Part shown: piece by piece, positions 6,385-10,737 of the stretch
Numbering within the stretch: position 1 is the first letter of the stretch
How the letters are laid out: the number at the start of each line of letters is the position of its first letter
IMG/VR virus record: IMGVR_UViG_3300035145_003476
Span: 1-22,134 of that record
From: a virus
Strand: one strand, 5' to 3'
Length of the DNA: 22,134 bases
Position numbers and translations under genes: made by a program
The notes under the pieces: generated by a model
Database searches by the model: none
What the model was told of the DNA's origin: nothing
Seen by the model: the letters and a program-made list of their open reading frames with translations, nothing else

Positions 6385-6759
6385 ATGAATTTCTTTGATT
6401 ATTTAAGTTCAATTAATTATTCTAAGAAAGATATTATGGTTGATGATATATCAGAAGAACAATATAATCCTTTTCTGATCAACCGTGGTCTTTCTTATTT
6501 TCAAGATACTGTTCTATATGCAAATGAAATGAATAAGTATCATCACCTTGATAATCGTCTTCAATTCGATTTTCTTATAAATATAGTCAGGAAACGGAAA
6601 CGTTTTAGCAAATGGGCAAAAAATACTAACCCAGATGCATTAAGTGTAGTGAAAGAATATTATGGCTATAGTAATGAAAAGGCTCGCCAGGTTCTTTCTC
6701 TATTATCTGATGGGCAAATTGATGAATTGAAAAAGAGGATGTTCAAAGGTGGAAAATAA
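6385..6759 (+). CDS. 62: Clamp-loader small subunit, T4 gp62-like
   Basis: 124 aa, somewhat shorter than T4 gp62 (187 aa), as is usual in marine T4-like phages. It begins MNFFDYLSSINYSKKDIM and has the expected mostly helical, basic middle (RKRKRFSKWAK about 70-80). It has no ATPase motifs, consistent with gp62 being the non-catalytic subunit that joins gp44 to make the clamp loader. The call rests on gene order (44 - redoxin - 62 - regA) together with sequence character. The end overlaps the regA start by 11 bases. Confidence 0.85.
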   Translation: MNFFDYLSSINYSKKDIMVDDISEEQYNPFLINRGLSYFQDTVLYANEMNKYHHLDNRLQFDFLINIVRKRKRFSKWAKNTNPDALSVVKEYYGYSNEKARQVLSLLSDGQIDELKKRMFKGGK

Positions 6760-7168
6760 TAATAAAGAAATAGAAGATTGGTCTCCGGCTTCTATGCTGG
6801 AAATATCTCTAAACGAACCTGATGACTTTTTGAAAGTAAGAGAAACATTAACAAGAATTGGTGTAGCATCTAGAAAAGATCGTAAACTATATCAATCATG
6901 TCATATTTTACATAAACAAGGACGATATTTTATAGTACATTTCAAAGAATTATTTTTACTAGATTCGAAACCGTCAAATCTAACTGAAAATGATGTTCAA
7001 CGTCGTAATACTATTGCAACACTGCTTTCTGACTGGGGATTAATTTCTATTGTAAAACCAGAAGAAGCGGTTAATGTTGCGCCACTACGACAGATTAAAG
7101 TTATCTCGCATAGAGATAAAGGCGAATGGGAGTTGTGTCCAAAATATAACATTGGCAATAGCCAATAA
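6749..7168 (+). CDS. regA: Translational repressor RegA
   Basis: 139 aa from the GTG at 6749, which lies 11 bases after GAGG and overlaps gene 62. The RegA domain proper starts at an internal ATG (6794, MLEISLNEPDDFLKV). From there it follows T4 RegA closely, including RETLTRIGVAS, LYQSCHILHKQGRYFIVHFKE and the C-terminal PKYNIGN. T4 RegA binds ribosome sites of early mRNAs, including 44, 45 and rpbA, and represses their translation. If the GTG is the start, the protein has a 15-residue extension not found in T4; the internal ATG has no visible ribosome site, which is why I prefer the GTG. Confidence 0.93.
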   Translation: MENNNKEIEDWSPASMLEISLNEPDDFLKVRETLTRIGVASRKDRKLYQSCHILHKQGRYFIVHFKELFLLDSKPSNLTENDVQRRNTIATLLSDWGLISIVKPEEAVNVAPLRQIKVISHRDKGEWELCPKYNIGNSQ

Positions 7169-7178
7169 GGAAGAGACT

Positions 7179-7418
7179 ATGTTTGGTTTTTTAAGAAAAC
7201 TATTTGGTGTGGAAGAAGTACCTGCTACAGGTGAACGAGCTCGTAATAAAAAAGGACATTACGTTGCTGATGATCCATCTACACCTAATGTAAATGAAGC
7301 TTATGTAGATGGTAAAACACCACCTAAGAAAAAAGCTACTAGGAAAAAAGCTGCAACGAAAAAAGCAGCAACGAAAAAGAAAGCTACTACTAGAAAGAAA
7401 GCAGCAGCTAAGAAGTAA
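7179..7418 (+). CDS. Histone-H1-like protein with Lys/Ala-rich tail
   Basis: 79 aa from ATG 7179 after AGGAAGAG; the open frame extends upstream into regA but that part is not needed. The N-terminal half (MFGFLRKLFGVEE, then GHYVADDPSTP) is a short ordered or partly amphipathic segment. Residues 47-79 are a low-complexity KKAATKK-type tail like those of bacterial H1-like and AlgP proteins. Such tails bind nucleic acid non-specifically, so it may compact DNA or bind RNA. Its stop codon directly abuts the acceptor piece of the tmRNA, so the two are probably on the same transcript. Not a known T4 gene. Confidence 0.8.
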   Translation: MFGFLRKLFGVEEVPATGERARNKKGHYVADDPSTPNVNEAYVDGKTPPKKKATRKKAATKKAATKKKATTRKKAAAKK

Positions 7419-7744
7419 TTCGTTGAAGCGTGAGATAGGAAGTTTGGACTCGGGTGCGAATCCCGACACCTCCACCAAGAGCACATTCAAATTTCGCAAC
7501 TGTATAACATGTGGAAAAGAATTTAAGGTGATTATAGATCATCCAACAGTTGTTCATTGTTCTAAAGAGTGTGTTGTTGATGGGGGTGAATTAGGATCGA
7601 CAAGCGACTAAAGGCACGTGGAGAATCGTCAAGAAAGACGCAAAAATCATGAATAAATGCAAACGATAACTTTGCTCCATCTGAGCTCGCTCTAGCAGCG
7701 TAGCCACAGGGGGTGTCGGCTCGACCTAGCAACAGAAACGAGCC
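7419..7744 (+). ncRNA. ssrA: Circularly permuted two-piece tmRNA (SsrA RNA)
   Basis: tmRNA rescues stalled ribosomes and tags the nascent peptide for proteolysis. The acceptor piece comes first. Its T-stem TCGGG/CCCGA (7450-7454 / 7462-7466) closes a 7-base loop TGCGAAT, then CACCTCC (7467-7473), A, and an encoded CCA (7475-7477). A 104-base intervening segment (7478-7581) would be removed. The coding piece starts GGGGGTG (7582-7588), giving a 7-bp acceptor stem whose third pair is G:U, the alanine identity signal. The conserved GGATCGAC D-region (7594-7601) follows. P2 candidates are CTAAA/TTTGG and CACGT/GCGTG. The tag frame, resume codon GCA 7659, reads ANDNFAPSELALAA then TAG (7701-7703), ending in the ClpXP-type LAA. 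The permuted form and tag resemble alphaproteobacterial tmRNA. Outer ends are approximate. No promoter is visible; it is probably co-transcribed with regA. Confidence 0.92.
7444..7611 (+). other. Possible zinc-ribbon coding frame running through the tmRNA intervening segment
   Basis: One frame through the segment between the tmRNA pieces reads CITCGKEF, 13 residues, then CSKEC: a Cx2C...Cx3C zinc-ribbon pattern of the CxxCGKxF...CSxxC type. It ends in TAA at 7609-7611, inside the tmRNA coding piece. The only plausible start is TTG 7444, 3 bases after AGGA, which lies inside the acceptor piece, so translation and tmRNA maturation would conflict. It may be a remnant of a gene into which the tmRNA pieces were inserted, a translated small protein, or chance. 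Confidence 0.3.
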
Positions 7745-7750
7745 TTTTTT
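7718..7750 (+). terminator. Intrinsic terminator of the tmRNA
   Basis: GGCTCG (7718-7723) pairs with CGAGCC (7739-7744) around a 15-base loop, followed by six T (7745-7750). It lies 14 bases after the tag stop codon and 21 bases before the promoter of the next gene, so it ends the tmRNA transcript. Confidence 0.8.
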
Positions 7751-7771
7751 ATAAAAAAGTTAAAAAAACTG

Positions 7772-7800
7772 TTTACATTTTCGATTATATGTGATAGAAT
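7772..7800 (+). promoter_or_regulatory. Sigma70-like promoter of the glycine-zipper gene
   Basis: TTTACA (7772-7777), 17 bases, TAGAAT (7795-7800), directly after the tmRNA terminator. The CTGTTTAC context and the -10 are nearly the same as in the cobS promoter. The transcript would start near 7807 with a leader of about 19 bases containing GGAG. Confidence 0.75.
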
Positions 7801-7825
7801 ATAATTAGAAATTGGAGAAATAGAT

Positions 7826-8383
7826 ATGAAAAATACGATTTTAGGATTTGTTTGGGGCGTTGTAATTACTATTGGGATTGGATATTCATCCACAGCTCAA
7901 GCACAAAGTATTGCTTATGGTACAGTTACATCTGTAATTGAAAATTGGACTTACGAAACCCGACGAGTTCCTTTTGAAAATTGTACAACGGTAAGAGTTC
8001 CTTTTACCGGATCTTATTATAATGGATATACTCGACTCAATCAACAATCAAACGCTGGAGATGTTCTTGGCGGTATGATTATTGGTGGATTAGTTGGTAA
8101 GGGAGCTACCGGAAACGATCGTGGCGCTGCTTTAGGCGCGGTGATTGGTGGTTTGATTGGTGCAGATCGTAACAATCAGCGTGTTGTACGAAATGGTTAT
8201 CCTGGTGGATATACTAATCAAGTTCGTTGTGTTACAGATTACGATTATATTAATGAATCTGTACAAGCAGGATACGTTGTACAATATATGTACGAAGGTT
8301 ACATGTATCAATTTCAAACTTTCAAAAATTATAATATTGGTGATAAAATTAGGTTGAATTTGCAAGTTCATCCTATAAACTGA
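7826..8383 (+). CDS. Exported glycine-zipper protein
   Basis: 185 aa. Residues 1-27 are a signal peptide with a hydrophobic core and an AQA cleavage site. Residues about 78-113 are a glycine zipper (GGMIIGGLVGKG ... GAALGAVIGGLIGAD) of the 17-kDa antigen/SlyB-type 2TM families, which insert in or associate with the outer membrane. The flanks are Tyr-rich and carry Cys at about 53 and 134 that could form a disulfide in the periplasm. No lipobox Cys follows the signal peptide. Possible roles are envelope modification, superinfection exclusion or help in lysis; none can be chosen from sequence. It has its own early-type promoter and is followed by a late promoter for hsp20. Confidence 0.8.
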   Translation: MKNTILGFVWGVVITIGIGYSSTAQAQSIAYGTVTSVIENWTYETRRVPFENCTTVRVPFTGSYYNGYTRLNQQSNAGDVLGGMIIGGLVGKGATGNDRGAALGAVIGGLIGADRNNQRVVRNGYPGGYTNQVRCVTDYDYINESVQAGYVVQYMYEGYMYQFQTFKNYNIGDKIRLNLQVHPIN

Positions 8384-8391
8384 TATAAATA
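8384..8391 (+). promoter_or_regulatory. T4-type late promoter upstream of hsp20
   Basis: TATAAATA is an exact match to the T4 late promoter -10 recognised by gp55-RNA polymerase with the gp45 clamp. It lies just after the glycine-zipper stop codon and 66 bases before the hsp20 ATG. Other TATAAATA copies in the window lie inside genes and are expected by chance at this base composition, so this call depends on position. Confidence 0.5.
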
Positions 8392-8395
8392 AAAC

Positions 8396-8420
8396 TGAGA
8401 TGCGGAATTAGCCGGTCTCA
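8396..8420 (+). other. Hairpin at the 5' end of the predicted hsp20 late transcript
   Basis: TGAGA (8396-8400) pairs with TCTCA (8416-8420), and CGG (8403-8405) with CCG (8412-8414) across a small internal loop. There is no T-run, so it is not a standard terminator. With a late start near 8397 it would form a 5'-terminal stem-loop on the transcript. Confidence 0.45.
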
Positions 8421-8456
8421 TACTATAACCTTGCTTAAATTTATAAGGAGGTACCC

Positions 8457-8933
8457 ATGACAGGCGTACAACAACTTTTCCCTCGTTCTTCTTTCGTTGG
8501 CTTTGACCATTTATTTAATGAATTAGATCATGCCGTGCGACATGCGAACGATCATTATCCCCCTCATAATATTATTAAAACTGGTGAAAACGATTATCTC
8601 ATTGAGTTAGCCGTTGCTGGTTTTTCACGTGAAGAATTGCAAATCGAAGTAAAAGATCGAACTTTGCGAGTTAGTGGTGCTCATGTTTCAAGAGGAAGGG
8701 AATTTATTCACCGTGGAATTTCAACTAAAAAATTCCAAAGGACATTTAGGCTGTCTGAATACGTACAAGTATCTGGAGCAGATCTAGTGGATGGCATTCT
8801 TGCGATAGAATTGAAGGTTGTTATCCCAGAAGAAATGCGTCCTCGTAAAATTGAAATTGGAAATTTTAACGAGGTCGAAAATGACACAACACATACTGAC
8901 AATAAACAATTACTTACTGAATCCAGTAAGTGA
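8457..8933 (+). CDS. hsp20: Small heat shock protein Hsp20
   Basis: 158 aa alpha-crystallin protein. The N-terminal arm contains SSFVGFDHLFNELD. The alpha-crystallin domain is about residues 37-125 (DYLIELAVAGFSREELQIEV ... LRVSG ... the conserved GILAIEL strand), and the C-terminal tail carries the I-x-I motif IEI (132-134) used for oligomer assembly. It binds unfolding proteins without ATP. Hsp20 genes are a standard part of marine T4-like phages, probably supporting capsid or replication protein folding. A strong AAGGAGGT ribosome site lies 6 bases before the ATG, and a late promoter is visible upstream. The stop overlaps the DUF1127 gene, which starts 53 bases earlier. Confidence 0.94.
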   Translation: MTGVQQLFPRSSFVGFDHLFNELDHAVRHANDHYPPHNIIKTGENDYLIELAVAGFSREELQIEVKDRTLRVSGAHVSRGREFIHRGISTKKFQRTFRLSEYVQVSGADLVDGILAIELKVVIPEEMRPRKIEIGNFNEVENDTTHTDNKQLLTESSK

Positions 8934-9153
8934 ATTTCTTGTTAACCTAAGTTCTTTACCAACTAAAATAGCTAACTCATATTCTAATCATCGAATTGCT
9001 CGAAGAACTATTAAAGAGTTAGAAGCTTTAACGGATAAAGAATTGAATGACATAGGTATTGGGCGATGTGATATTTATTATATCGCGCATAATCTAAAAG
9101 ATAATGAAGTTTGTGATTCATCCACTAATGAAAATCTAAAGGGGTGGGTCTAA
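8881..9153 (+). CDS. DUF1127 (YjiS-like) small arginine-rich protein
   Basis: 90 aa from ATG 8881, preceded by GAGG and overlapping hsp20 by 53 bases; an upstream in-frame methionine at 8818 lies deep in hsp20 and is less likely. Residues about 37-66 match the DUF1127 signature: Arg-rich helix, then L..LTDKEL.DIGI.R.DI (here LEALTDKELNDIGIGRCDI). DUF1127 proteins are abundant in alphaproteobacteria, where small members have been linked to RNA turnover and phosphate uptake. I do not know them as standard phage genes. The role here may be to redirect host RNA metabolism, but that is inference. The stop overlaps the next start by one base (TAATG). Confidence 0.8.
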   Translation: MTQHILTINNYLLNPVSEFLVNLSSLPTKIANSYSNHRIARRTIKELEALTDKELNDIGIGRCDIYYIAHNLKDNEVCDSSTNENLKGWV

Positions 9154-9329
9154 TGATGGGTTCAACAATATCTTATTTATTCTCACCCTTATCGGGATTG
9201 TGGTCCTCAATCGAACGGCATTCGCAGATTCTCGGGCATTCGAGAGCGGCAGCGGAGCTCGCCAGGCAGGGTTTTCACGAAGAGAGTAAAAAATGTATGA
9301 TGGAACTTAAGAAACTAAAAGATTCATAA
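9153..9329 (+). CDS. GC-rich 58-aa protein (unknown)
   Basis: 58 aa from the ATG that overlaps the DUF1127 stop. The N-terminal 20 residues are moderately hydrophobic. The rest is a helical segment (HSRAAAELARQGFHEESKK, then MMELKKLKDS) that looks like a companion helix seen near DUF1127 proteins, though I cannot name a family. The middle of the gene (about 9190-9290) is well over half G+C by eye and uses CGG, GCG and CTC codons that are rare elsewhere here. This suggests recent capture from a bacterial genome. It is followed directly by a hairpin. Confidence 0.65.
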   Translation: MMGSTISYLFSPLSGLWSSIERHSQILGHSRAAAELARQGFHEESKKCMMELKKLKDS

Positions 9330-9338
9330 TCTTTTCTA

Positions 9339-9362
9339 TTAAGGGCTCGCAAGGGCCCTTAA
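9339..9362 (+). terminator. Perfect 8-bp hairpin after the GC-rich gene (weak terminator)
   Basis: TTAAGGGC (9339-9346) pairs exactly with GCCCTTAA (9355-9362) around an 8-base loop, followed by only TTTG. It may end the hsp20-DUF1127 message partially or protect its 3' end, allowing read-through into the oxidase gene, which has no promoter that I can see. Confidence 0.55.
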
Positions 9363-9378
9363 TTTGTCAAGGAGCAAG

Positions 9379-9984
9379 ATGAGACAACCAAAGGATTGGC
9401 AGGACAAAGCTGCTTATTTTTTTACAATGACTTTTCGTTGGTTTGCAGATACTTTCTTTGCAAAACGTTATGGTCATAGAGCAGTTGTACTAGAAACTGT
9501 GGCCGGCGTTCCAGGAATGGTAGCTGGGATGTGGAATCATTTACGTTCATTAAGAAAAATGCAACCAGACGATCGTGGTTGGATTAAAACGTTATTAGAA
9601 GAAGCAGAAAACGAGCGTATGCATCTTATGATTTTTATTCAGATTGCAAAACCAAATTGGTTTGAACGTGCATTAATATTAATTGCACAAGGAATTTTCT
9701 GGCACTTCTATTTATTTTTATACATATTTTTTCCACGTATAGCTCATCGAATGGTTGGTTATTTCGAAGATCAAGCAGTAATTAGCTATACACAATATTT
9801 GAACAGAATTGAACGTGGTGACATTGAAAATATCGATGCTCCACAAATCGCAATTGATTATTATAATTTGAAATCAAATGCAAAATTAGTTGACGTTGTT
9901 AAAGCAGTCCGCGCAGATGAACAAGGCCATGCCGATGTTAATCATGAAATGGCTGATGAACTTAAGGGAGACAAGGATGTCTAA
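9379..9984 (+). CDS. aox: Alternative oxidase (di-iron ubiquinol oxidase)
   Basis: 201 aa. It oxidises ubiquinol and reduces oxygen to water without pumping protons. All six di-iron ligands are in place: Glu39 (LETVA), Glu79 and His82 (NERMH), Glu130 (FEDQA), Glu181 and His184 (RADEQGHADVNH). Conserved AOX segments VPGMVAGM and SYTQYL are also present. The region about 95-125 is strongly hydrophobic, matching the membrane-bound face of this monotopic inner-membrane enzyme. The short N-terminus lacks a targeting sequence, as in bacterial forms. Start ATG 9379 follows AAGGAG. Phage relatives known to me are the plastoquinol terminal oxidases (PTOX) of cyanophages; the motifs here read as ordinary bacterial AOX. 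The end overlaps the cytochrome gene by 8 bases, suggesting coupled expression. Confidence 0.92.
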   Translation: MRQPKDWQDKAAYFFTMTFRWFADTFFAKRYGHRAVVLETVAGVPGMVAGMWNHLRSLRKMQPDDRGWIKTLLEEAENERMHLMIFIQIAKPNWFERALILIAQGIFWHFYLFLYIFFPRIAHRMVGYFEDQAVISYTQYLNRIERGDIENIDAPQIAIDYYNLKSNAKLVDVVKAVRADEQGHADVNHEMADELKGDKDV

Positions 9985-10348
9985 AGCTATATTAACTACA
10001 ATATCATTACTATTAGCTTCTGCAGCTTTTGCAGATGATAAAGCATTTAATAAATGTAAATCATGTCATAGCATCGAAAAAGATGGTAAAAATATGACAG
10101 GACCTAATTTATGGAATATTATGAATCGAGGTGTTGGAGTATCAGAAAACTATAAATATTCTAAAGCCTTTTCGAAATGGGCTAAAGAAAATCCAGAATG
10201 GACACCCGAATTAATGGATCAATGGTTAACTAATTCCAAAAAGTTAGTCAAAGGTACTAAAATGGCATTTAGAGAAAAGAAGGAAGATAAGCGTGCAAAA
10301 ATTATTGAGTATCTTCAATCTATGGTTGAAGTTACCTCCACAGAGTAG
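9977..10348 (+). CDS. Exported class I c-type cytochrome
   Basis: 123 aa. Residues 1-19 form a Sec signal peptide (AILTTISLLLASAAFA, cleavage before Asp20). The heme-binding site is CKSCH (27-31) and the axial methionine is Met96 in KGTKMAF, typical of cytochrome c2/c552-type proteins. GPNLW (42-46) and the C-terminal helix around IIEYLQSM match the class I fold. The mature protein is about 104 aa and should be a soluble periplasmic electron carrier between the bc1 complex and a terminal oxidase. Maturation needs host Sec and cytochrome c assembly proteins. The ATG has GGGAG upstream and overlaps the oxidase gene by 8 bases. c-type cytochromes are not part of the known T4-like core. Confidence 0.92.
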   Translation: MSKAILTTISLLLASAAFADDKAFNKCKSCHSIEKDGKNMTGPNLWNIMNRGVGVSENYKYSKAFSKWAKENPEWTPELMDQWLTNSKKLVKGTKMAFREKKEDKRAKIIEYLQSMVEVTSTE

Positions 10349-10421
10349 CGATAAGAGTAAGCATAGAGCTCATAGCGCGAAATACGAAGATCTATGCATG
10401 TAACACACAGGAGACACACAC

Positions 10422-10646
10422 ATGGCAGATAATAAGAATCCCTTTGAGATTCGTTCAGAAATTTTACAATTGTCAAAAGAGTATTTAGATAAACAGCGTG
10501 AAATGCATGTTGAATATACTCAAAAACTAATTGATGCTGGACAAGCTCAAATGAACGAAATGGTAGCTGCATGCAAGCCATATACCTTTGATGATTTAAT
10601 GGAAAAGACCAGAGAATTCTATTCCTTTGTTTCAGAAAAGAAATAA
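10422..10646 (+). CDS. Small helical protein upstream of gene 43 (unknown)
   Basis: 74 aa. The start follows a good ribosome site (CAGGAG) after a 73-base gap from the cytochrome gene in which I see no promoter. The protein begins MADNKNPFEIRSEILQLSKEY and is probably one long helix followed by a shorter one (DDLMEKTREFYSFVSEK). It has no Cys pair beyond a single CKP, no signal peptide and no membrane segment. The look is that of a conserved short phage protein, and a coiled-coil or phasin-like role is possible, but I do not recognise it. It is the last gene before a strong intrinsic terminator and the gene 43 promoter. Confidence 0.75.
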   Translation: MADNKNPFEIRSEILQLSKEYLDKQREMHVEYTQKLIDAGQAQMNEMVAACKPYTFDDLMEKTREFYSFVSEKK

Positions 10647-10649
10647 TAT

Positions 10650-10672
10650 AGAGGGCTTTTGCCCTCTTTTTT
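10650..10672 (+). terminator. Intrinsic terminator before gene 43
   Basis: GAGGGC (10651-10656), loop TTTT, GCCCTC (10661-10666), followed by TTTTTT (10667-10672). This is a textbook rho-independent terminator closing the accessory block. Confidence 0.9.
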
Positions 10673-10683
10673 ACATTATGCTG

Positions 10684-10712
10684 TTTACTTTCTCTCATAA
10701 ATTTGATATAAT
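10684..10712 (+). promoter_or_regulatory. Sigma70-like promoter of gene 43
   Basis: TTTACT (10684-10689), 17 bases, TATAAT (10707-10712), between the terminator and gene 43. The CTGTTTACTT context matches the cobS promoter. The predicted transcript start is at or near 10719, where an overlapping short reading frame begins. Confidence 0.8.
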
Positions 10713-10737
10713 AATACTATGACGATGGAGATTGATT

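Follow-up and report, generated by a model that had tools for sequence, protein, structure and literature searches.

A permuted tmRNA gene of a T4-like phage carries a protein-derived reading frame in its intervening segment, where related phages nest small protein genes

Circularly permuted, two-piece tmRNA is already known from phages and is not rare: 53 of 133 unique phage tmRNA structures had been reported as two-piece by 2022, and 50 of the 53 came from marine or aquatic phages (PMC9004378). Described permuted ssrA genes of marine phages that are likewise T4-like include those of Melnitz, a phage of OM43, of Pelagibacter phage Mosig (both PMC9004378) and of the isolated Pelagibacter phage HTVC008M (KC465899, 145161-145370). 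HTVC008M shares the GGGGGTG/CACCTCC acceptor strands and the complementary segment ends with the gene studied here, but differs in its tag (ANFNEYALAA) and its short segment, while the Melnitz gene is, unlike ours, linked to a glutamine riboswitch (PMC9004378); nested genes were not described for any of these phages. Alphaproteobacterial tmRNA (RF01849; merged RF04321) has in common with our gene the permuted order, the G:U third acceptor pair, the ANDN start of the tag and the 3' GCAACAGAAAC loop. Compared with the 77 cellular loci examined, however, the intervening segment of our gene is long (104 nt against a median of 28), its tag is longer than most and the segment holds a protein-derived frame. 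The accessible part of the 2025 tmRNA database paper (PMC11915505) describes a homing endonuclease gene in a group I intron of a tmRNA, likewise a case of a tmRNA gene that contains a protein gene, but located in a self-splicing T-loop intron rather than between CCA and the 5' acceptor strand as here, where most nested families are not endonucleases. The same accessible part describes a tRNA-Ala in the intervening sequence of a permuted tmRNA, a gene in the same slot but an RNA gene and a single case from a nominally archaeal bin, as well as a repeat in another permuted intervening sequence; it makes no mention of protein genes in permuted segments. A literature search, with subscription papers mostly outside its reach, returned no description of nested protein genes in permuted tmRNA. 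Such nesting in phage permuted tmRNAs appears to be new and is well supported in the relatives of the gene reported here, which is itself very probably a working permuted ssrA of a T4-like phage whose segment is a small-gene slot, holding in this instance a zinc-ribbon coding frame.

The window, i.e. the whole stretch of DNA analysed, is an entire viral record of 22,134 bases. Rfam covariance models matched it at positions 7418-7746 with RF04321 (permuted tmRNA; 107 bits, cut-off 47, E 2.5e-20) and with RF01849 (alpha tmRNA; 78 bits, cut-off 50, E 6.1e-20), the latter being the search that the sequence-only reading had proposed, and the strength of the match is far beyond chance. ARAGORN called a permuted tmRNA with the tag ANDNFAPSELALAA. 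The features of the locus are as follows.

6749-7168, + strand: RegA-type translational repressor (PF01818, 157 bits; phrog_242)
7179-7418, + strand: gene for a small lysine-rich histone-H1-like protein, directly 5' of the tmRNA gene
7418-7746, + strand: permuted tmRNA gene (RF04321)
7418-7477, + strand: acceptor piece (RF04321 match starts at 7418)
7428-7432 and 7442-7446, + strand: 5' part of P2, GCGTG and GTTTG (pairing)
7450-7466, + strand: T-arm TCGGG-TGCGAAT-CCCGA (pairing, RF04321)
7467-7473, + strand: 3' acceptor strand CACCTCC (pairing, covariation)
7474-7477, + strand: ACCA, the encoded CCA end
7478-7581, + strand: intervening segment of 104 nt, between CCA and the 5' acceptor strand
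7480-7488, + strand: 5' arm of the precursor helix, AGCACATTC (9 bp in the window)
7480-7611, + strand: open frame, zinc-ribbon-like STFKFRNCITCGKEFKVIIDHPTVVHCSKECVVD followed by GGELGSTSD and a stop (TAA, 7609-7611)
7567-7575, + strand: 3' arm of the precursor helix, GAGTGTGTT (9 bp in the window)
7582-7703, + strand: coding piece (RF04321, pairing)
7582-7588, + strand: 5' acceptor strand GGGGGTG
7594-7601, + strand: GGATCGAC in the coding piece
7601-7605 and 7615-7619, + strand: 3' part of P2, CAAGC and CACGT
7659-7703, + strand: tag reading frame ANDNFAPSELALAA with stop TAG (ARAGORN)
7718-7744, + strand: hairpin GGCTCG...CGAGCC with alpha-tmRNA-like loop GCAACAGAAAC, terminator-like, T run to 7751

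The order is permuted, with the T-arm and CCA 5' of the 5' acceptor strand, and the parts named by the sequence-only reading were recovered at the coordinates it gave: the T-arm with encoded CCA (7450-7477), the 104-base segment, and the GGGGGTG strand and GGATCGAC (7582-7601). Its acceptor stem was likewise found, as seven pairs (GGGGGTG/CACCTCC) with a G:U third pair, and this stem covaries across viral relatives; the tag it had called intact runs from the resume codon GCA to its stop, and the hairpin and T run agree with the proposed terminator. P2 pairs across the two pieces as GTTTG/CAAGC and GCGTG/CACGT. Folding of the two pieces using energy only missed P2, and the acceptor stem and T-arm were recovered when the full 3' end was added. 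With both models above cut-off and T4-like genes on both sides, the description of a phage-borne, circularly permuted, alphaproteobacterial-type tmRNA stands. The tag pattern ANDNFAPSE(L)ALA, searched as degenerate DNA, had no match in genome contigs. In nucleotide searches of annotated phages, the window tmRNA gave T-arm matches only, and L074 or a coding piece as query gave nothing useful.

Viral loci, i.e. permuted tmRNAs from other viral contigs, were gathered using exact DNA patterns and cut into pieces. As 105 of these loci were picked for full pairing, the method itself raises their percentage paired; they contain 16 distinct acceptor stems, each 7/7 paired, with variation on both sides of pairs 4, 5 and 6 and a G:U third pair in 105/105. 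Swapping strands between stems gave full pairing in only 18 of 240 combinations, and this rarity, together with the diversity of the stems, is better evidence than the percentage paired. At a threshold of 6/7 pairs, which gave 183 loci of all kinds, the stem was 7/7 in all but one. The first P2 pair was kept in 99/99 loci (as T-A, A-T, C-G or T-G), P2 pairing exceeded that of shuffles, and the tag ended in LAA in 100 of the 105 loci. The covariation of the acceptor stem in related viral loci therefore places the gene under selection as a tmRNA, and the varied but paired stems, the kept P2 pair and the LAA endings indicate that this phage group maintains a functional tmRNA. The tags of the viral permuted tmRNAs L064 and L069 are unusually long, at 24 residues (ANENFAPEAFTSLDMSMDRELLAA and ANENFAPEAFTSLDLSMDRELIAA).

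It is a sound inference from these parts that the window tmRNA would rescue stalled ribosomes and tag proteins. The ssrA gene would probably be transcribed together with, or near, the RegA and H1-like genes, giving a precursor in which the acceptor stem is closed and the intervening segment forms a further helix of its own. Host tRNA-processing enzymes would be expected to cut after CCA (7477) and before GGGGGTG (7582), and the segment 7478-7581, if processed like those of other permuted tmRNAs, would be dropped from the mature RNA, leaving two RNAs predicted to be joined by the acceptor stem and P2. Charging would be carried out by host AlaRS, given the G:U third pair; SmpB of the host would carry the tmRNA to stalled ribosomes, with ANDNFAPSELALAA added for ClpXP-type degradation. 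A search for SmpB (PF01668) in 29 viral records that carry tmRNA (62 to 251 kb, some perhaps incomplete) found none, and control genomes matched as expected. Host SmpB is therefore presumably used; as the window is a 22-kb record, an SmpB gene may lie elsewhere in this phage.

The tmRNA gene is flanked by genes for T4-type DNA polymerase, sliding clamp, clamp loader, RegA and UvsX, as assigned using Pfam and PHROG. The stop codon of the H1-like gene ends at 7418, abutting the acceptor piece, and a Pfam scan of its protein found no family. The stretch from RegA to DNA polymerase (7169-10731 in the window; RegA relatives L121-L200) is a variable accessory region in which Hsp20, DUF1127, alternative oxidase (AOX), cytochrome c, phasin-like, H1-like and tmRNA genes occur in varying combinations. 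In the window it includes AOX (PF01786, 272 bits; 9364-9984), followed by cytochrome c (9977-10345). AOX relatives are encoded in 89 viral contig stretches, most of those kept being 70-87% identical, the best cellular match among 385 alphaproteobacteria was 73%, and a brief literature search found no description of a phage AOX of this type. The AOX-bearing viral contigs L278, L280 and L386 have a different tmRNA tag type (ANDDIYQLAA, ANDDIYELAA). Only 1 of 65 records with close RegA relatives, many of them short fragments, contained a tmRNA above cut-off, and the window-type gene is accordingly sporadic. The host is probably an alphaproteobacterium. The claim that the tmRNA type identifies the host class was not supported as stated: Melnitz carries an alpha-type permuted tmRNA and infects OM43, placed in Gammaproteobacteria by PMC9004378, and permuted tmRNAs are also present in Stenotrophomonas phages, so that the host can be only weakly predicted from the tmRNA type.

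Two readings would deny the phage a working tmRNA. That the gene is host DNA within a mis-assembled or prophage contig is highly improbable, since, although host stretches may occur in a viral collection, T4-type clamp, clamp loader, RegA, DNA polymerase and UvsX genes lie on both sides, and a tree of short core sequences, unevenly sampled, has viral sequences as the nearest and needs only 2 changes to part viral from cellular labels, where shuffles need at least 45. A decoy or decaying gene, one that disturbs trans-translation in the host and does not carry it out, would fit the sporadic occurrence among close relatives and has a parallel in the tag-less tmRNA of mycobacteriophage DS6A, which is reported to inhibit the resident tmRNA on expression in E. 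coli (PMC11915505); it is nevertheless unlikely here, as none of the tag frame, its stop, CCA, the G:U pair or P2 is damaged, and relatives show covariation in the acceptor stem.

The intervening segment had a median length of 93 nt (26-327) in the viral loci and 28 nt (6-116) in the 77 cellular loci, the latter having been chosen as best-scoring or by pattern. Two extra scans aimed at long segments yielded 47 new viral loci. The segment ends pair, with a mean helix of 10.1 bp over unique viral segments compared with 5.5 in shuffles, and those of the window form a 9-bp helix. Segments of at least 214 nt mostly contain a single complete gene that starts with ATG and runs for 43 to 97 codons; it begins 12-23 nt past CCA, and its stop typically lies shortly ahead of the 3' arm or within it; two genes per segment were found in L507, L508 and L512 (388 nt) and in L539 and L541 (443 nt). 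That these nested frames are merely chance open frames in AT-rich spacers has next to no likelihood. Below 100 nt, frames were indeed no more frequent than in shuffles, but from 100 nt up the excess is strong: an ATG frame covered at least 75% of the segment in 9/27 segments of 100-150 nt (1.4 in shuffles) and in 29/41 unique segments of at least 150 nt (0.5 in shuffles), and among 95 unique segments unselected for length, 21 had a frame that was 30 or more codons long and spanned 70% of the segment (4.4 in shuffles). A Shine-Dalgarno-like site preceded 31 of 36 nested frames, compared with 21% at random positions, and known families and free-standing homologues elsewhere in phage contigs are further evidence against chance, which homology and dN/dS contradict; the latter was mostly 0.05-0.25 within families with enough divergence and higher in the short F9 family. 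In the relatives, the segment of phage permuted tmRNA is a slot for small protein genes between the helix arms, and the nested genes are under purifying selection. The segment, treated in the sequence-only reading as a mere spacer, is more than that: many relatives hold whole genes there, and the window segment has a phage-protein-like frame.

At least ten unrelated protein families are nested in this manner. Pfam assigned DUF6356 (46 bits, cut-off 24.4) and PGDYG (29.2, cut-off 27), with a DUF2061-like protein just under threshold, and an HNH endonuclease matched phrog_2255 (E 2e-25). A complete HNH endonuclease gene occupies the 327-nt segment of L095 and L110, outside any group I intron, and may be a mobile element of tmRNA genes. 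Of the viral relatives of family F1, 26 out of 34 sit inside tmRNA, and of those of DUF6356 10 out of 49, the remainder being mostly free-standing; one locus in these counts, L528, ends before its acceptor strand is fully checkable. Carriers of nested genes include contigs with UvsX 73-77% identical to that of the window. In L510, L511 and L513, which have no tmRNA, the F1 membrane protein gene comes directly after the gene which in other phages lies next to the tmRNA, and the 3' flank is similar (TAGTGTRATTA), an arrangement read as gain or loss of both tmRNA halves around a gene. The F1, F3 and DUF6356 nested proteins had no match in annotated phage records.

In the window, a single frame through 7478-7581 reads STFKFRNCITCGKEFKVIIDHPTVVHCSKECVVD and ends at 7611 inside the coding piece. 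Its translation is 63% identical over 30 aa to L202:4905-4994 (E 1.2e-9), a homologue just upstream of the clamp loader, 55% identical to L206-L209 (E 3e-7) and weakly similar to the gene directly after RegA in L146, the homology being established against viral loci gathered in the present analysis only; Pfam and PHROG gave sub-threshold zinc-finger or HNH matches. The cysteine pattern, which was noticed post hoc, occurred in 10 of 20,000 shuffles. Judged by this homology, the frame derives from a phage gene. The free-standing zinc-ribbon frames have a strong GC-rich hairpin in frame upstream (L202:4840-4905, L208:4560-4596), paralleling the T-arm 5' of the window frame.

The window frame may be a relic or a live gene with a cryptic start. 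Measured against a complete gene (Shine-Dalgarno site, start codon, stop), it falls short, and the window was not classed as an intact nested-gene case because there is no in-frame ATG in the segment, the only candidate starts being TTG codons inside the acceptor piece, and a ribosome starting there would have to read through the T-arm in competition with folding. That the frame is what is left of a dead gene once nested in the segment, so that only the helix and the length still matter, is a reasonably probable reading: besides the missing ATG, the 104 nt are shorter than most segments with complete genes, and the segments of L459 and L082 are not homologous to it although their T-arm and acceptor strands are identical to those of the window, so that segments are swapped or lost fast. 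Against a remnant, the frame is open with all four cysteines kept, comparison with L202 gave dN 0.25 and dS 1.76 (30 codons only), and the C-terminal reading into the coding piece (GGELGST...) also occurs in the second gene of L539. That the permuted ssrA is a nesting slot from which the zinc-ribbon gene is expressed in the window, its output tied to tmRNA maturation, is an unlikely reading, put forward only tentatively. Since its stop (7609-7611) lies beyond the processing site at 7582, a processed transcript would be stop-less and its ribosomes would need tmRNA, giving, by analogy, a feedback like the one described for ArfA.

The window contains a real tmRNA of a known kind, in which nesting is represented by a protein-derived frame without a standard start. 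What changes is the view of the segment, usually treated as a discarded spacer and here a site at which phages house small genes, precisely arranged as helix arm, Shine-Dalgarno site, gene, stop and helix arm. Two-piece tmRNA genes of viromes hide unannotated genes. The nesting suggests a testable link between tmRNA maturation and the expression of phage small proteins, and the slot offers one explanation of why phages might favour the permuted form.
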